Shown one piece after another: positions 8,129 through 16,838 of a stretch of DNA of 64,000 nucleotides. The stretch lies in NCBI GenBank assembly GCA_017621815.1, contig JAGASK010000028.1:1-64000 (forward strand), in the 5' to 3' direction. The stretch is from Lachnospiraceae bacterium (GTDB lineage Bacteria > Bacillota > Clostridia > Lachnospirales > Lachnospiraceae). A program made the translations under genes and the position numbers. Each line of letters starts with the position of its first letter. Within the stretch, counting starts at the first letter, position 1. The notes below the pieces were generated by a model that worked only from the letters and a program-made list of their open reading frames with translations, was not told the DNA's origin and did no database searches.

Positions 8129-8171
8129 TTGTCAATAACAGCCGAATATGCTATTATAATATTCGGCTGTT
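8129..8171 (+). promoter_or_regulatory. tRNA-Leu promoter overlapped by a 13-bp palindrome
   Basis: TTGTCA (8129-8134) followed by TATTAT (8152-8157, 17-nt spacer) or TATAAT (8155-8160) is a plausible promoter for the tRNA genes downstream. AACAGCCGAATAT (8137-8149) and ATATTCGGCTGTT (8159-8171) are perfect inverted repeats flanking the -10 region. They may be the lysA transcript-end hairpin or an operator. Confidence 0.55.
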
Positions 8172-8191: not shown

Positions 8192-8265
8192 GCCGGCATG
8201 TCGGAATGGCAGACGAGGCAGACTCAAAATCTGTTGTGGGCAACCACGTGTGGGTTCAAGTCCCA
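8192..8265 (+). tRNA. tRNA-Leu(CAA), 5' part, split by the integrated element
   Basis: Positions 8192-8265 give a tRNA-Leu from the 5' acceptor strand GCCGGCA through the D arm, anticodon arm (loop CTCAAAA, anticodon CAA), long variable arm and T arm. The 3' acceptor strand does not follow: TCCATAA at 8267-8273 pairs with GCCGGCA at only two of seven positions. The matching TGCCGGC plus discriminator A is 5.3 kb away at 13597-13604. This copy therefore cannot make a normal acceptor stem and is probably non-functional while the element is integrated. Confidence 0.9.
8217..8265 (+). repeat. attL core (49-bp direct repeat)
   Basis: Identical to 13547-13595 over 49 bp. The repeat runs from just before the anticodon stem of tRNA-Leu to the end of the T arm and differs immediately outside on both sides. 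It marks the left junction of the integrated element. Confidence 0.93.
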
Positions 8266-8288
8266 TTCCATAACAACAGACCACAAAT

Positions 8289-8371
8289 GCAGGAGTGGCG
8301 GAACGGCAGACGCAGTGGACTCAAAATCCACCGTTGGTGACAACGTGAGGGTTCAAATCCCTTCTCCTGCA
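8289..8371 (+). tRNA. tRNA-Leu(CAA), complete, element-borne
   Basis: An 83-nt tRNA-Leu with acceptor stem GCAGGAG / CTCCTGC, discriminator A, anticodon stem GTGGA / TCCAC around CTCAAAA (anticodon CAA), a long variable arm and an intact T arm. CCA is not encoded. It lies inside the element, between attL and the integrase, and reads the same codon (UUG) as the tRNA gene the element splits. It is probably expressed from the host tRNA promoter upstream. Confidence 0.93.
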
Positions 8372-8374
8372 TCA

Positions 8375-8411
8375 GACCTTATAAATCTCAGGGTTTATAA
8401 GGTCTTTTTTT
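8375..8411 (+). terminator. Terminator after the element-borne tRNA-Leu
   Basis: AGACCTTATAAA / TTTATAAGGTCT forms a 12-bp stem around a short loop and runs straight into a T run. It ends the tRNA transcript before the integrase region. Confidence 0.9.
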
Positions 8412-8443
8412 GTACCTAAATACTCAGATAGTTTTCCCCTCTA

Positions 8444-8488
8444 CACTCGTAAGATTTTTACACACCTTTTCTGGAGGTCTAACGAGTG
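8444..8488 (+). repeat. Possible integrase arm-type sites (left end)
   Basis: CTCGTAAGATTTT at 8446-8458 is repeated exactly at 13373-13385 near the other end of the element. CACTCGT (8444-8450) is also inverted as ACGAGTG at 8482-8488. Short repeats near both ends of an integrase-carrying element are typical of arm-type binding sites; this role is inferred. Confidence 0.45.
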
Positions 8489-8505
8489 GAAAAGGAGAAA
8501 ATACT

Positions 8506-9459
8506 ATGCAGAGATTATCACTTAAAAATACTGATGATTTAACTCTTATGGAGGCATTTAATGATTTCAAGGATAAGTGCCAAATAAAGAATTTGTCAAA
8601 GGAAACTATCAAGCTATACGAAAATCAATTCTTAACATTCTACCGCTTTGTTGATGATACATCACTTCTTATATCAGAGGTCACATCAAAGACCGTTGAT
8701 AATTTTATTCTTGATTTACGTTCAGACAACCATAACTGTAATGAAATAACCGTAAACTCCTATCTTCGGGGTATTCGTGCTTTTCTTTATTACTGTATGG
8801 ATATGAATTATCTTCCTCAGTTCAAAATCCACATTCCCAAAGTTGATAAGAAACTCAAAGAAACTTACACCGATACGGAATTAAAGGTATTACTCAAAAA
8901 GCCAGACCTCAAAACGTGTAGCTTTTCGGAATATAAGATTTGGGTATTCTCCAATTATCTGTTAGCAACTGGAAATCGTATTTCTACTGCTCTTAATGTA
9001 AAGATTGAGGATATAGATTTCACGAATGGACTTATACAACTTAACCACACCAAGAACCGCACTTCCCAGCTTATACCGTTGTCACAAACTTTGGCTACGA
9101 TATTGAAGGAATACTTGAAGTATCGTAAGGGAACACCAAAGGATTATGTTTTCTGCAACACCTATGGAAATAAAGGGGATATACGAACCTATCAAGATAT
9201 GCTGGCTGCCTATAATCGTAGGAAAGGGATAGAAAAGACCTCCGCTCACTTATACCGTCATACCTTTGCTAAAAAGTGGATTTTGAATGGTGGAGATATA
9301 TTCAGACTTCAAAAGATACTAGGGCATTCGGATTTAGCTGTAGTAAAGGAATATGTTCAGATGTTTGGAAGTGACCTAAGTATAGATTTTGACAAGTTCA
9401 ATCCTTTAGACCGTACTATTACCCAGACTGCTAATAAGAAATTGAAAATGGTGTTATAG
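8506..9459 (+). CDS. Tyrosine recombinase / integrase
   Basis: A 317-residue phage-type integrase. The N-terminal SAM-like core-binding domain spans residues about 10-100. The catalytic domain has all key residues: R158 (GNRIS), K183 (HTK), H248-x-x-R251 (HLYRHT), H274 (LGHSD) and the nucleophile Y283 (KEYVQMF). AAGGAG at 8492-8497 fits ATG 8506; the longer open frame from 8410 lacks such a site and runs through terminator DNA. It lies next to attL, as expected for the enzyme that integrated the element. Confidence 0.95.
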   Translation: MQRLSLKNTDDLTLMEAFNDFKDKCQIKNLSKETIKLYENQFLTFYRFVDDTSLLISEVTSKTVDNFILDLRSDNHNCNEITVNSYLRGIRAFLYYCMDMNYLPQFKIHIPKVDKKLKETYTDTELKVLLKKPDLKTCSFSEYKIWVFSNYLLATGNRISTALNVKIEDIDFTNGLIQLNHTKNRTSQLIPLSQTLATILKEYLKYRKGTPKDYVFCNTYGNKGDIRTYQDMLAAYNRRKGIEKTSAHLYRHTFAKKWILNGGDIFRLQKILGHSDLAVVKEYVQMFGSDLSIDFDKFNPLDRTITQTANKKLKMVL

Positions 9460-9469
9460 GGGGAATACT

Positions 9470-9700
9470 GTGGAACGCTACATTACGGACGCTATTTATA
9501 ACAATATTCCGCAAAGGAAATCGGTTGAGATGGAATTAGCTCAAAAGAGGTTATATACTAAGCTATCCTCCGTTATTTCTGGGAACGAATACCTACCGAT
9601 TGAGGAAGAACTTAACCGTATTTACTCCGAGGTAGAAAAGGAATTGTTCTATTGTGGTTTTGTTGAAGGAATACGTTTCCTTATTAGCTGTATGAAATAA
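9470..9700 (+). CDS. Small protein of unknown function next to integrase
   Basis: A 76-residue protein starting at GTG 9470, supported by AGGGGG at 9458-9463 with a 6-nt gap, only 10 nt after the integrase stop. It is charged and helical and ends in a FVEGIRFLISCMK segment. The shape faintly recalls the small DUF6809-type proteins found near integrases in Firmicutes, but I cannot confirm that. The position suggests co-expression with the integrase, so an excision or control role is possible. Confidence 0.65.
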   Translation: MERYITDAIYNNIPQRKSVEMELAQKRLYTKLSSVISGNEYLPIEEELNRIYSEVEKELFYCGFVEGIRFLISCMK

Positions 9701-9788
9701 GGGGATAGAATTTTTTGAAATGCTGGAAATAATAGCCTTCGGAGATACGGTGATAGAAATTCGGAAAAAGAAAAATTTATAAAATACC

Positions 9789-9933
9789 TTTGCTTCGCAA
9801 ACTAAGTCCTTCGGACTTAGTAAGGGAGTATTTAATTTATAAGTGTTGTAAACGATAGGCTTTTATAATCTTATAAATAAAAATACTTTTAATCTCTTGC
9901 GAAGCAAGAGTTAGTAGGGCGAAGCCCTACTAA
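9789..9933. repeat. Cluster of four hairpins with TTC/GAA loops
   Basis: Four hairpins lie between convergent genes: TTTGC-TTC-GCAAA (9789-9801), ACTAAGTCC-TTC-GGACTTAGT (9801-9821), CTCTTGC-GAA-GCAAGAG (9894-9910) and TTAGTAGGGC-GAA-GCCCTACTAA (9911-9933). On either strand an incoming transcript meets two TTC-loop hairpins before two GAA-loop hairpins. A T-rich stretch follows at 9939. The block probably terminates transcription from both sides. Confidence 0.7.
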
Positions 9934-9979
9934 GGAGAATTTTTTATTTTATCGTTTTTTATCTCCGTATCACCGTAGC

Positions 9980-10312
9980 TTAGATTTTGTTATCGGTGTA
10001 TGAGAACATAAGCTTTAATACGTTTATAGCCATTTCCTTTTCGGCAGCAGTCTTACCATTAAAAAGCTGATAAAGGCGGTCTATTGTTATATCATCACTT
10101 GGAGCAATATAATCGGATAATAGGAAATCTACAGTTACACCCAGCCGATTAGAAAGCGGAATCAATTTGTCAAGCGTAACACTCCGTTCTCCACGTTCTA
10201 TTTGTCCGAGATAGGCTGTTGATATATTGATGTCCTCAGCTAACTTTTCTTGTGTCAGATTGAGTCTAAGACGTTCTTCTCGTATTCTCTTACCCAGTAA
10301 TGAATAGTCCAA
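9980..10312 (-). CDS. XRE-family transcriptional repressor
   Basis: A 110-residue Cro/C1-type regulator. The helix-turn-helix fills residues about 7-60 (LGKRIREERLRLNLTQEKLA then ISTAYLGQIERGERS). A C-terminal helical tail probably serves dimerisation. The start is TTG (10310-10312), supported by GGGAGG at 10321-10326. It is transcribed against the integrase and away from the lipoprotein gene, the layout expected of a lysogeny-type repressor. Its operator is probably in 10330-10440. Confidence 0.88.
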   Translation of the reverse strand: MDYSLLGKRIREERLRLNLTQEKLAEDINISTAYLGQIERGERSVTLDKLIPLSNRLGVTVDFLLSDYIAPSDDITIDRLYQLFNGKTAAEKEMAINVLKLMFSYTDNKI

Positions 10313-10412
10313 TTTTTACACCTCCCTAATACAACTCGTAGTATAAGTAAATGATACAAAAGAACTATGATATATTTAATCTGCTAAATGCGTTAAATAG
10401 ATATGCTGGTAG

Positions 10413-10441
10413 TTGTATTTCGAAAGCTAATTTGATATAAT
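10413..10441 (+). promoter_or_regulatory. Putative promoter of the element lipoprotein gene
   Basis: TTGTAT (10413-10418), a 17-nt spacer and TATAAT (10436-10441). It lies in the divergent region between the repressor and lipoprotein genes. Confidence 0.5.
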
Positions 10442-10516
10442 GGAGAAAGTAACTTTTTGATATAGCTTACAAAAGTTTAAGGTCTTTAGATACTGTATTT
10501 GAGAAAGGAATGCGGA

Positions 10517-11410
10517 ATGATGAAAAAGAGATTGTTAAGCGGTCTGCTGATATTCTTTTCAGCCATACTTCTTTCTGCTTGTAGTAATGGCAGAACGGAG
10601 CAAAATGATGATGTAGATAATGCTCCAGAAGATAAAACGGTAATTGAAACGGAAGAACAAAAAACGGATAGTTTTTCTGAGATAATACAAGATACGATTG
10701 AAGTTGATTATAAGTGGTATAAAGGACGTTTTTACAGAAATTCAGAAAATACTAATCTTTGGATAAATCTTTCTGATACAAATGATGGAATATGCGTTAG
10801 AGTGCCAGGTTATTCCTTTAATGTAAATCAGCCCGAAGTAATAGAGGGGAATGAATATGGTACAGTGCTACGTTACACCTATAAAGAAAAGTATGAACGT
10901 TTTGAGTTTCTGATTGATTATATTTCAGAACGTGATGAAATTATTGTGCTTTATATGAATTATACTTATCAGTCAAGTAATGCGGTAGATTTTAGTGGTA
11001 TTTATATGTATGATAAAGATTTGTCCGCTAGTATGGAAAGTGTTATAAACGAAGAAGTCACTACATCAAATTTAGGTTTTACTGACGGACAACGCTTTGA
11101 GTGTTTTGAAACAGTATCAGGAGAAAATGTAATTCTTACAGTTCATTTGTTCTATTCAGATGATAGTAGTGAGCCATCAGCTTACAAGGGAGAATTGAGC
11201 AATGGTATAGAATTTTGGTTTGAGTTCTACGATAGCTATACAGACGAAATGCAATATAAAATTGAATGTATGGACGGTTCTAATGCTTTTCTTACCTACT
11301 TCCCAAGTCGTGGCGAAATAGTATGGACTGCTGAGGAAGGAACGGATTACGGAAATATGTATGCTTATAGTGGCACTTATATATGTTTGCCTGATGAAAT
11401 TGAGGAATAA
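10517..11410 (+). CDS. Element-encoded surface lipoprotein, unknown function
   Basis: About 297 residues. The N-terminus is a lipoprotein signal peptide with a lipobox ending LLSAC (Cys22), so the mature protein should be anchored to the outer membrane face. A polar linker follows. The rest appears to be two similar beta-rich modules: the first ends near FSGIYMYDKD and the second near YSGTYICLPDE. No enzyme motif was found. AAAGGA at 10503-10508 supports ATG 10517 or 10520. Some temperate phages encode lipoproteins in the lysogeny module that block superinfection (for example Ltp of TP-J34). The position next to the repressor fits such a role, but that is inference. Confidence 0.75.
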   Translation: MMKKRLLSGLLIFFSAILLSACSNGRTEQNDDVDNAPEDKTVIETEEQKTDSFSEIIQDTIEVDYKWYKGRFYRNSENTNLWINLSDTNDGICVRVPGYSFNVNQPEVIEGNEYGTVLRYTYKEKYERFEFLIDYISERDEIIVLYMNYTYQSSNAVDFSGIYMYDKDLSASMESVINEEVTTSNLGFTDGQRFECFETVSGENVILTVHLFYSDDSSEPSAYKGELSNGIEFWFEFYDSYTDEMQYKIECMDGSNAFLTYFPSRGEIVWTAEEGTDYGNMYAYSGTYICLPDEIEE

Positions 11411-11422
11411 AAGTATGATGAG

Positions 11423-11460
11423 GAGATACGGAGATAAACTTCTGTATCTCTTTATTTTTA
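11423..11460 (+). terminator. Terminator after the element lipoprotein gene
   Basis: GAGATACGGA / TCTGTATCTC forms a 10-bp stem with one G-T pair, followed by TTTATTTTT. It lies 12 nt after the stop. The rest of 11461-11708 holds an AAAACTCC repeat (11512-11519), an ACCGT/ACGGT inverted repeat near 11580-11605 and a TATAAT at 11656-11661 upstream of the helicase gene. Confidence 0.75.
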
Positions 11461-11708
11461 CACAAATTTAGTGTGATAAGAAAAAAGTTTAATTTCATCA
11501 TTATGCACATAAAACTCCGAAATAATATTGGGTATTTTGTTGGAATAGTACAAAAAAGCACCCGAGAAAACAGAGAATAACCGTCTGTTTTAAGCCGAAA
11601 ACGGTAAAAAATCTTGAGTTTATCTCATAGGCAAAGTGAACATATCCCCTTTGTTTATAATAGCAAGGTCTACAAGGGCTTTGACGAATAATTAAAGGAG
11701 ATACGAAA

Positions 11709-13172
11709 ATGATTGATGAATCACAAGCTATTTATGAATTACTTACAGAAGAATTTCCTATGAAGAACACAGATAACGGAGTATTAGTCACTATTAAAAC
11801 GGCACAAGGAAAGCAAGATGTTTCTGTATCGAGCAATAAATTTTATAGTATTGTTGCAAATAAATACAGAAAAAAGTATGGGCAGATAGTTTCTAGCGGT
11901 AAAATCAAGAATTGTGTACTTAGTTATCAAGGACAAATCATTGAAGAATGTGAATGTGTAAAAAATTCTAATCGTTGTGAACGTGGGGAGAATAACACAA
12001 TCCTAATTGACATAGGTAATAGGGAGGATACCTATTTTGAAATTTCAAGAAATGGAATTGAATGTAAAGAAGATGGAAGTGCTTTTTTCTATAAGCAGAT
12101 AAGAAAATGTGAATTACCAAAGCCCGACTTTGAAAACGCTGATATTGAACGTATTTTTGAGTATTGCAGAATACCAGAGCATATGCGTACTATCTTTATT
12201 GCTTATATTGTTAGCTTGTTTATTGGTGATATAGAACATCCTTGTTTAGTTTTGCATGGTGAACAAGGTGTTGGAAAGTCTACAATAAGCAAGTTTATAA
12301 AGTTATTGGTTGACCCTGTTGGAGATAGTGCCCCTATGGAATTGCCTAGCAAACTTAATGAATTGTCCTTAATTTACCAAGATAATTATTTAATTGCTTT
12401 GGATAATTTACAGAAACTTAACACAAAAACAAGTGATAAATTATGTCGTCACATTACAGGAACGGAAGAATTTGTACGTCAATTATATACGACTAATGAG
12501 TTATTACACTTCAATTTATGTCAGCCTATTATCTTGAACGGGTTGACTGATGTTGTAACAAGGGGAGATTTGGCAAGTCGTTGTATTATTTTGAAAATAG
12601 AAAAACCTATATCAAAAGCACAGAAGGATATTGATAAAAGTAGAAATCTGCCAAACAAGTCAAATGGTAAGGTTAATTTACTTGAACGTTTTATGAATGA
12701 TAGACCTTTGATATTAGGTGGTATATTCAAGCTTTTGGTAGAAACACTAAAAGCGTATCAAACAAAGGATATACCGCAATTTGGAGCCGACCTTAGAATG
12801 ACCGATTTTTATAATTATGGTTATTATATTTGTGAAGCTTGGGAAAAAGGAAAGGGAACCGAGTTTTGTGCTGATTATATTACACTGATTGAGAATCAGT
12901 TGAAAGGATTTGCAAAGAATACTGGTTTGATTGAATTTATAAAAATGTATTTAGAAGATATAGGCGGAGAATGGAATGGTGTTATGAAAGATTTATCTTC
13001 TGCCCTAATTGATTATGAGGAGGGAACACAACTTGACATTGTTCCAGCCAGTCCTAATCGTCTTTCACGAGAATTAAGAAAACTATTATCAGACTTTGAA
13101 GAAGCTGGAGTTTATATAAAGTTTTCTAAGACGAGAAATAATAGTTGCTATATTACGCTATCCCTTGATTAA
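11709..13172 (+). CDS. AAA+/SF3-like replication helicase of the element
   Basis: A 487-residue ATPase resembling the D5/P4-type helicase part of phage and satellite replication proteins. The Walker A motif is GEQGVGKST (184-192), Walker B is LIALDN (Asp232), a sensor Asn lies at about 277 (PIILNG) and a candidate arginine finger at R291 (LASRC). The last 70 or so residues look like a winged-helix DNA-binding domain. The first 140 residues show no recognisable primase active site. AAGGAG at 11695 precedes ATG 11709. With the repeats at 13203-13460 downstream it probably forms the replication module of the element. Confidence 0.8.
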   Translation: MIDESQAIYELLTEEFPMKNTDNGVLVTIKTAQGKQDVSVSSNKFYSIVANKYRKKYGQIVSSGKIKNCVLSYQGQIIEECECVKNSNRCERGENNTILIDIGNREDTYFEISRNGIECKEDGSAFFYKQIRKCELPKPDFENADIERIFEYCRIPEHMRTIFIAYIVSLFIGDIEHPCLVLHGEQGVGKSTISKFIKLLVDPVGDSAPMELPSKLNELSLIYQDNYLIALDNLQKLNTKTSDKLCRHITGTEEFVRQLYTTNELLHFNLCQPIILNGLTDVVTRGDLASRCIILKIEKPISKAQKDIDKSRNLPNKSNGKVNLLERFMNDRPLILGGIFKLLVETLKAYQTKDIPQFGADLRMTDFYNYGYYICEAWEKGKGTEFCADYITLIENQLKGFAKNTGLIEFIKMYLEDIGGEWNGVMKDLSSALIDYEEGTQLDIVPASPNRLSRELRKLLSDFEEAGVYIKFSKTRNNSCYITLSLD

Positions 13173-13202
13173 CAATAAAACCGAAAAAACACACCAGCAT
13201 TT

Positions 13203-13433
13203 TGGAGTTTAAAATAAACAACTGCTGCCTTGAGGAATGATTACTGAGGGTATGGAGTTTAAAAATAATTTTATTTTTGGGGATTTGTTTTATAAAACTC
13301 CGACTTGCTTACTGATGATGATAGAAATATGATTTAAAACTCCGAGAAAATTTAAAATAACGCTTTACTTTTCTCGTAAGATTTTCGATAATAGACTTGT
13401 AAAGAAAAATGTTATTTGAACTCGTAAAACTCC
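13203..13433. repeat. Iteron-like TWAAACTCC repeats (candidate origin)
   Basis: GGAGTTTA occurs at 13204-13211 and 13254-13261. The complementary form TAAAACTCC or TTAAAACTCC occurs at 13293-13301, 13334-13342 and 13425-13433, with a further copy near the helicase gene at 11510-11518. Flanks are extremely A/T rich. No ORF of note lies between 13173 and 13546. The pattern suits a replication origin or repressor-binding array. Confidence 0.5.
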
Positions 13434-13460
13434 CAGAGAAGAATTGAGAGTTTTACGAGT
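13373..13460. repeat. Right-end repeats: arm-type site and 13-bp inverted repeat
   Basis: CTCGTAAGATTTT (13373-13385) copies the left-end site 8446-8458. ACTCGTAAAACTC (13420-13432) and GAGTTTTACGAGT (13448-13460) are perfect inverted repeats with a 15-nt loop. They lie about 90-170 bp inside attR and are candidates for integrase or excisionase binding. Confidence 0.45.
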
Positions 13461-13546
13461 GTAAAAGGGTTAAAATCTATCGTGTATTCGATAATATCGT
13501 GATTTATGTAAGGTTTGCGGTGGTGGCGAGTTGGCTTTATATGCAC

Positions 13547-13595
13547 GGCAGACTCAAAATCTGTTGTGGGCAACCACGTGTGGGTTCAAGTCCCA
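13547..13595 (+). repeat. attR core (49-bp direct repeat)
   Basis: Identical to 8217-8265. It is followed directly by CTGCCGGCA, the missing 3' acceptor strand of the split tRNA-Leu. Confidence 0.93.
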
Positions 13596-13604
13596 CTGCC
13601 GGCA
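13547..13604 (+). pseudogene. tRNA-Leu(CAA), displaced 3' part
   Basis: Holds the anticodon arm, variable arm, T arm and the true 3' acceptor strand TGCCGGC plus A. The 5' acceptor strand and D arm are missing, because element DNA lies upstream. Joining 8192-8265 to 13596-13604 restores an 83-nt tRNA-Leu with a perfect acceptor stem. Confidence 0.9.
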
Positions 13605-16690: not shown

Positions 16691-16809
16691 AACTACATAT
16701 TTATCAGAAAACAAAGTGGAGAACGATTTGAAAATATATAAAATGCACAAAAATATCATAATATTTATGAGCAAAACGGATAAAATGTCCATATAAAACG
16801 ATTGATATA

Positions 16810-16838
16810 TTGACAAAATGTGTGCATATTGCTATACT
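16810..16838 (+). promoter_or_regulatory. Promoter of the GlcNAc phosphotransferase operon
   Basis: TTGACA (16810-16815), a 17-nt spacer and TATACT (16833-16838), a near-perfect sigma-A promoter. The antiterminator target begins about 30 nt after the expected start point. Confidence 0.8.

Follow-up and report, generated by a model that had tools for sequence, protein, structure and literature searches.

A small integrative element in the 64-kb stretch of DNA examined here (the window: positions 1–64,000 of contig JAGASK010000028.1, to which all coordinates refer) probably splits its target, a host tRNA-Leu(CAA) gene, and replaces it with a copy that it carries itself. We put the probability of this reading at roughly 0.7. 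It draws on features read from the sequence, namely the split, the empty site in relatives of the host, the intact tRNA within the element, the likeness of that tRNA to genes of other bacterial families, and its position. Throughout, tRNA1 denotes the split host gene and tRNA2 the element-borne gene, and L- and G-numbers denote loci and genomes of the comparison set.

A split host tRNA gene and a complete tRNA gene behind it

The 5.3-kb element is bracketed by exact 49-bp repeats, as an earlier sequence-only reading of the window had stated. The features around its two junctions are as follows.

8129–8157, plus strand: TTGTCA-17-TATTAT, a promoter-like site in host DNA ahead of the split tRNA (promoter pattern scan)
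8192–8265, plus strand: 5' part of the host tRNA-Leu(CAA), tRNA1, up to the T-arm, broken (Rfam match; no difference from the intact gene in four congeneric species)
8217–8265, plus strand: attL copy of the 49-bp core (exact repeat)
8266–8288, plus strand: 23-nt spacer in place of the acceptor strand, then the start of a trailer (CAGACC common to the spacer and the tRNA2 trailer)
8289–8371 (8288–8373 according to ARAGORN), plus strand: intact element-borne tRNA-Leu(CAA), tRNA2, the putative replacement (Rfam 56.5 bits; acceptor paired at 7/7 positions)
8374–8405, plus strand: predicted terminator between tRNA2 and the integrase gene (fold; conserved in the related locus L026)
13517–13546, plus strand: element sequence adjoining the attR core on its left, possibly the decayed remains of a tRNA-Leu 5' half (shuffle test with four probes)
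13547–13595, plus strand: attR copy of the 49-bp core (exact repeat)
13596–13604, plus strand: right half of the host tRNA-Leu(CAA), with its 3' end at 13604 (identity of the joined halves with relatives)

At the left junction, the tRNA is sound up to the T-arm and diverges from a tRNA after 8265. Its 5' acceptor strand (GCCGGCA, 8192–8198) pairs at two of seven positions with the sequence that now faces it (TCCATAA, 8267–8273), and the matching strand, TGCCGGC, sits at 13597–13603, at the right end of the element; the mismatch and the 5.3-kb displacement described in the sequence-only reading are thereby borne out. Folded alone, the left junction is about as stable as shuffled sequences (z −0.14; 84 of 200 shuffles equally good), although the Rfam tRNA model still matches it over model positions 7–64 of 71 with 30.1 bits (cut-off 29). 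Given this fold and the partial match, we rejected the usual rebuilding of the tRNA at attL. ARAGORN takes the right-junction chimera for a tRNA-Leu; its acceptor forms three of seven Watson–Crick pairs and one G–T pair, its predicted fold is not a cloverleaf, and it is not among the Rfam tRNA matches. Sequence and predicted folds thus indicate that a functional tRNA is rebuilt at neither junction.

Scanning both junctions for tRNAs, a check proposed in the sequence-only reading, additionally brought out tRNA2, which that reading had not mentioned. This gene starts 23 nt after the left core and has a stable predicted fold (z −2.74, against −0.14 for the broken left half), and the terminator that follows it is strong (z −7.11). 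The claim that the element splits the tRNA instead of restoring it therefore stands as far as the split is concerned, whereas the implied loss of the tRNA does not, since an intact tRNA with the same anticodon adjoins the left junction. Promoter-like sites number two on both strands, against 1.1 expected by shuffling, and the sequence around the site at 8129–8157 aligns in relatives of the genus.

The 23-nt spacer scores 17 in local alignment with the trailer of tRNA2, a score reached by 12 of 2000 shuffles; against the trailer of L039, a rebuilding relative described below, it does not rise above chance (299 of 2000 shuffles as high). It resembles a worn tRNA end and trailer, so that the recombination core looks like an old tRNA end freed from rebuilding. 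On the other side, 13517–13546 was compared with four probes, and 10 and 29 of 2000 shuffles scored as high for two of them, 732 and 1693 for the other two.

tRNA2 is 75% identical to tRNA1. Among 392 genomes sampled from the order, its best matches are the tRNA-Leu(CAA) genes of G395, G429 and G443, which belong to other families of the order (89–91% identity over 74–80 nt); the best match within its own family reaches 85% (G198). A 34-nt tRNA2 pattern had no match in viral_contigs. The assembly, which is 91.55% complete and consists of 52 contigs, contains 40 matches to the Rfam tRNA family, all of them typed, with leucine anticodons TAA, TAG, AAG, CAG and CAA. tRNA2 is the only intact tRNA-Leu(CAA) among them, the other CAA match being the broken half. 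A pattern for leucine tRNAs with the CAA anticodon hits four places in the assembly: the left half, tRNA2, the right half, and one place without a tRNA.

The insertion site is empty in relatives of the host

We searched 60 genomes, including the host's own, with the two flanks joined, and 52 matched. The empty site that the sequence-only reading had proposed to look for was found: ARAGORN calls an intact tRNA-Leu(CAA) in 26 of the 29 relative loci fetched (up to ~3.2 kb each), and in G320, G327, G301 and G309 this tRNA equals the joined halves of the window in 82/82 nt, that is, in all but the last base. The joined halves thus make up the intact gene of four species, which argues that the split is derived, that the acceptor mismatch is not ancestral and that the host half has not decayed. 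An ancestral mismatch, which the sequence-only reading had named together with the absence of any empty site as the outcome that would speak against it, was accordingly rejected, the relatives carrying an intact gene. With the host half unchanged and 23 nt of element sequence behind it devoid of an acceptor strand, the capacity to rebuild was probably lost before this integration.

The window's upstream gene recurs in 28/29 loci and its downstream gene in 0/29, so that synteny on the right side stops at the tRNA's own terminator; the best right-flank alignment extends to 47 nt past the junction (G320). In the remaining three loci (L125, L145 and L148, from G309, G321 and G313), the contig ends in or at the tRNA, as insertion repeats would cause, and the site may be a hot spot. 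Two contig ends of G309 carry the tRNA, owing perhaps to an insertion or to a break in the assembly. In G303, of the same genus, the tRNA-Leu(CAA) at this locus (L186:10524–10606, contig C55) has the same acceptor as tRNA2 and is 85.5% identical to it; its GCAGGAG acceptor, against the GCCGG type of most relatives inspected, is perhaps a sign of an earlier tRNA replacement.

Rebuilding relatives of the integrase

The integrase survey took in the best 80 of 136 relatives in genome_contigs and 13 in viral_contigs, the viral loci being known here by their integrase alone. With the window this gave 94 loci, of which 14 with less than 300 nt upstream were dropped. Of the 80 loci left, window included, 60 have the end of a tRNA no more than 350 nt before the integrase, in the relatives mostly at 100–215 nt, and 20 have no tRNA in this range. 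Tested for tRNA-like sequence further upstream, 13 of these 60 loci were flagged; nine lie beside complete neighbouring tRNAs, L029 has a 22-nt repeat in an element of the usual type, and the window, L035 and L046 have a split tRNA. In a class-level sample, 12 of 391 genomes had an integrase at E ≤ 1e-90; 12 non-window loci were inspected, one of them L026 by its coordinates, and 7 of the 12 have a tRNA before the integrase, none flagged as split.

Repeats at both ends beside a tRNA were seen in six of 34 loci inspected (L027, L029, L034, L037, L039 and L046). In all of these except L046, the intact tRNA at the left is the rebuilt target. L039 (the same locus as L011 and L019; genome G096) is such a case at a tRNA-Leu(CAA) of another genus, rebuilt with a 72-bp repeat. 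These five usual-type loci and the left end of L026 share the integrase family and tRNA-Leu targets with the window element, and their tRNA ends ~130–155 nt before the integrase, except in L037. L029 likewise has helix-turn-helix (HTH), lipoprotein-like and helicase genes. Unlike the window element, they have an intact tRNA at the left with no broken target half before it (L037 was not scored), the exception being L029 with its 22-nt copies of a tRNA 5' end.

L026 gives the closest comparison, its integrase being 85–86% identical to that of the window. The distance from tRNA end to integrase is 133 nt in the window, counted from tRNA2, and 130 nt in L026, counted from its single intact tRNA, and the two loci align from the tRNA end through the terminator and the inverted motifs described below to the start of the integrase gene. 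This matching spacing and alignment suggest that the carried tRNA occupies the place of the rebuilt tRNA in usual-type relatives.

Several further layouts were seen in the family. In L031 (6768–8846), two integrase starts lie 1995 bp apart, each behind a complete tRNA-Leu(CAA), as in tandem elements of which the first measures ~2.0 kb. In L027 (8788–11433), 76-bp repeats of tRNA-Leu(AAG) enclose a 2.57-kb unit whose integrase is the second closest (76%). A duplicated tRNA array (Pro-Gly-Arg-His-Lys, then Pro-Gly-Arg-His-Gln-Lys) stands just before the integrase in L044 (7827–8900) of Roseburia porci and was possibly captured by an element. Finally, L029 (8440–8760) and L035 (8330–8525; positions approximate) contain a similar unit of ~150–200 bp behind a copy of the first 22 nt of tRNA-Leu. 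The unit, which occurs twice in L029, shares ATGGCG.AGCGGTC.AAATTTTT.GGCGC.CCAAGCCGA, as though a very small repeat had inserted into the D-loop; it has no Rfam match beyond tRNA.

A second case of the same layout

L046 comes from a goat-colon Clostridia metagenome-assembled genome of 1.7 Mb. Its genes follow in the order integrase, small open reading frame (ORF), HTH (minus strand), lipoprotein-like (by eye) and two helicase genes, interrupted by one further gene. The host tRNA-Leu(CAG) is split into a 5' half (8520–8559) and a 3' half (~16773–16829) with mutually matching acceptor strands. Before the integrase lies a complete tRNA-Leu(CAG) (8749–8835), its acceptor different from that of the split gene. 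Here too, ARAGORN calls a tRNA at the right junction. Both ends carry a 110-bp stretch from the right end of the element, a duplication that a tandem insertion followed by collapse would explain and a single insertion does not.

A pattern for leucine tRNAs with the CAG anticodon finds in this genome the element's tRNA, the 3' half, one more displaced half, and no other copy. The further half (L222:1501–1570; G674, contig C23) is perhaps the scar of another insertion. L035 has a left end like that of L046 and a right end off the contig; in its genome (1.0 Mb) the same pattern has one match, the element's own tRNA. As their integrases are nearly identical, L035 and L046 count as one case. In L029 and L030, which belong to the clade of L046, the usual place is taken by an intact tRNA.

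On a tree of 36 of the 94 integrases, the label rebuilding or replacing needs two changes, which well-supported branches force, and a single clade was recovered in 0% of 200 bootstraps. Two gains of replacement are the simplest reading of a tree that does not separate gain from loss.

Element genes and candidate integrase sites

Within the element, the following genes and motifs were annotated.

8446–8454, plus strand, and 8478–8486, minus strand: inverted pair of CTCGTWARA motifs, candidate arm-type integrase sites (similar in L026)
8506–9459, plus strand: tyrosine integrase, 317 aa from the ATG at 8506 (ORF from 8410; family matches)
9470–9700, plus strand: 76-aa ORF with no assigned function (55% identical homologue in the same place in L026)
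9980–10312, minus strand: HTH repressor-like protein (family matches; 80% identical homologue in L026)
10499–11410, plus strand: lipoprotein-like protein, probable start 10517 or 10520 (lipobox by eye; no match over the curated cut-off)
11709–13172, plus strand: helicase-like replication protein (weak VapE-like domain match, below the Pfam cut-off)
13373–13459: three CTCGTWARA motifs at the right end (13373 plus, 13421 plus, 13451 minus), candidate arm-type sites

The integrase frame is open over its 317 aa, and R158, H248, R251, H274 and Y283, which we take to be the catalytic residues, are invariant in a four-row alignment. Used as a lone query, the integrase has no relative in viral_contigs; in plasmids it has at least 5000 records, those counted all being less than 60% identical. 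Homologues of the helicase-like protein occur in L029, L030 and L046 (27–29% identity), and within the order 6/392 genomes have a relative, the host's own included and the others at 27–30%. Neither as a lone query nor as an alignment did it find a relative in viral_contigs; among phages it matches two records of one Microbacterium phage at 22% identity, and its best hit among solved structures has an E-value of 0.096.

The gene list of the sequence-only reading (integrase, repressor, lipoprotein, helicase) holds, with the helicase match weak and the lipobox assigned by eye, and, in line with that reading, no structural or transfer gene was recognised. Integrase and repressor match phage families; none of the five element proteins matches a phage structural family, and family scans of these proteins found no relaxase or transfer gene. 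Phage satellites of the PICI (phage-inducible chromosomal island) type carry packaging or capsid-interference genes, to which none of the five proteins has a match. Of the description 'very small satellite- or plasmid-like', the plasmid-like part fits the gene content; for the satellite part, no packaging gene was recognised. Tycheposons are tyrosine recombinase elements with a complete tRNA at their end.

CTCGTWARA, a pattern picked after inspection of the sequence, has five matches in the window, where 1.47 are expected and 1 of 100 shuffles reached five; every one of them is located at an end of the element, two at the left and three at the right.

Proposed mechanism and alternative explanations

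From these features we infer transcription of tRNA2 from the host promoter, its processing and charging, and present mobility of the element. The integrase would recombine within the 49-bp core. With no usable acceptor strand on the element side of the core, the host tRNA would be left as two dead pieces, and tRNA2 would come under the host tRNA's own promoter (8129–8157), with transcription ending at the terminator before the integrase gene. RNase P would then cut the carried tRNA out of the transcript. Exact excision would restore tRNA1, and any other loss of the element would presumably cost the cell its tRNA-Leu(CAA). As to origin, an ancestor likely rebuilt its target tRNA in the usual way; a recombination core may then have ended up on the upstream side of the rebuilt tRNA, with the result that the element took the complete tRNA along and its core was freed from rebuilding. 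In a more general form, which we hold to be about evenly balanced between true and false, small Clostridia elements without phage particle genes would switch repeatedly from rebuilding to replacing, the rebuilt attL tRNA being captured whole through an upstream core and the cell made dependent on the element's tRNA. Were this true, the origin of tRNA-dependent integration, called unclear in the 2024 phage study discussed below, would gain a concrete direction and route.

Several observations weigh against replacement by a carried copy. Whole isotypes, such as Ala, Ile, Asp and Phe, are missing from the 40 tRNA matches; this assembly of 91.55% completeness therefore lacks some tRNA genes, which could include a further CAA copy. 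The host also carries a tRNA-Leu(TAA) that might read UUG, in which case the replacement tRNA may not be essential. The exact element was seen in one genome only (1/37 in the genus), and its helicase was found in none of the six genomes with integrase relatives, L026 among them (0/6). Moreover, the distance between core and left motifs exceeds that of the tRNA2 loop, and that of the core in relatives, by 97 bp, which casts real doubt on the use of the 49-bp core by the integrase.

Among other accounts, a two-step history, though unlikely, is the most probable. A first element would have rebuilt tRNA1, a second would have inserted in tandem with tRNA2, and a deletion would have removed the body of the first together with the tRNA1 acceptor, the split being secondary damage tolerated thanks to tRNA2. 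Such a course would fit the segment after the left core, which resembles the start of an element left end (the CAGACC trailer), the tandem elements each behind a full tRNA that exist in the family (L031), and the 110-bp stretch at both ends of L046 that a single insertion does not explain. However, it requires two insertions and a deletion; the 74 nt of the host half are unchanged while the 23 nt behind them have no acceptor strand, which suggests a loss older than the residence here; and L046 has the same split with both ends present. The two-step history could still describe an event in an earlier host.

It is quite improbable that the element is a dead remnant or an assembly artefact, immobile and with a layout devoid of function. 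Although it is known from one genome in 52 contigs, and the exact element was found nowhere else searched, the integrase is open over 317 aa with five residues invariant among the four aligned sequences, both repeats are perfect, and a second genome has a like layout (L046). We give least credence to tRNA2 being a host gene, the second of two tandem tRNA-Leu(CAA) genes, as its array-like position as a normal tRNA 23 nt behind the core might suggest. None of the 29 relative loci shows two genes and 26 show one (G309, with its two contig ends, is ambiguous); tRNA2, its terminator and the inverted motifs match the left end of the L026 element; and tRNA2 is 75% like tRNA1. On the single gene in relatives and the match to L026, we rejected this account. 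Replacement of the split target by a carried tRNA thus remains our preferred reading.

Comparison with known systems

The principle is known from tRNA-dependent lysogeny, demonstrated experimentally in actinobacteriophages (Fionnbharth, LeBron, Gaia and others; Guerrero-Bustamante and Hatfull 2024, PMC10865867). In that study, the non-rebuilding cases have 8–17-bp cores (Table 2), Gaia also uses tRNA-Leu-CAA, related integrases rebuild the tRNA, and the authors call the relation to tRNA-rebuilding systems unclear. Dependence of stable integration on the carried tRNA is a further mark of this kind of lysogeny. The window element shares with these phages a tyrosine-family integrase, an attB inside a host tRNA gene, a carried tRNA of the disrupted isotype, and the lack of a rebuilt functional tRNA at either junction. 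It differs in its core, which is 49 bp long rather than short (~10 bp; 8–17 bp), and in its nature: those are temperate phages, whereas this is a 5.3-kb element in a Clostridia host with no recognised phage structural or packaging gene. Its replacement tRNA sits beside the left junction, downstream of the host promoter, and what is left of the split gene can still be recognised as far as the T-arm. The element works like tRNA-dependent lysogeny but is not classed as a member, because the short core and the phage nature, two defining features, are absent here.

Two further parallels come from published work. In the Lactobacillus johnsonii prophage Lj965, as cited in the discussion of PMC10865867, the tRNA is not rebuilt and a cognate tRNA is encoded; Lj965 is a prophage, unlike the window element. 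In Sinorhizobium, phage-related sequences substitute a host tRNA gene with a carried foreign one (PMC11476347), a substitution by an insert as here but in a phage-related setting, likened by description only. Among the open-licence papers listed by searches for the same in other elements, no title or abstract start describes tRNA replacement outside phages, which is not proof of absence.

What sets the present case apart is the setting: small Clostridia elements, a long core and a spare tRNA at the junction. Rebuilding and replacing occur side by side in one integrase family, with two changes on its tree and the carried tRNA in the place of the rebuilt one, which makes the route to tRNA-dependent integration testable. 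Our analysis suggests that dependence on a mobile element through its tRNA may also occur with small elements unseen by phage-centred searches, and islands reported as breaking a tRNA gene should be searched for a spare copy.

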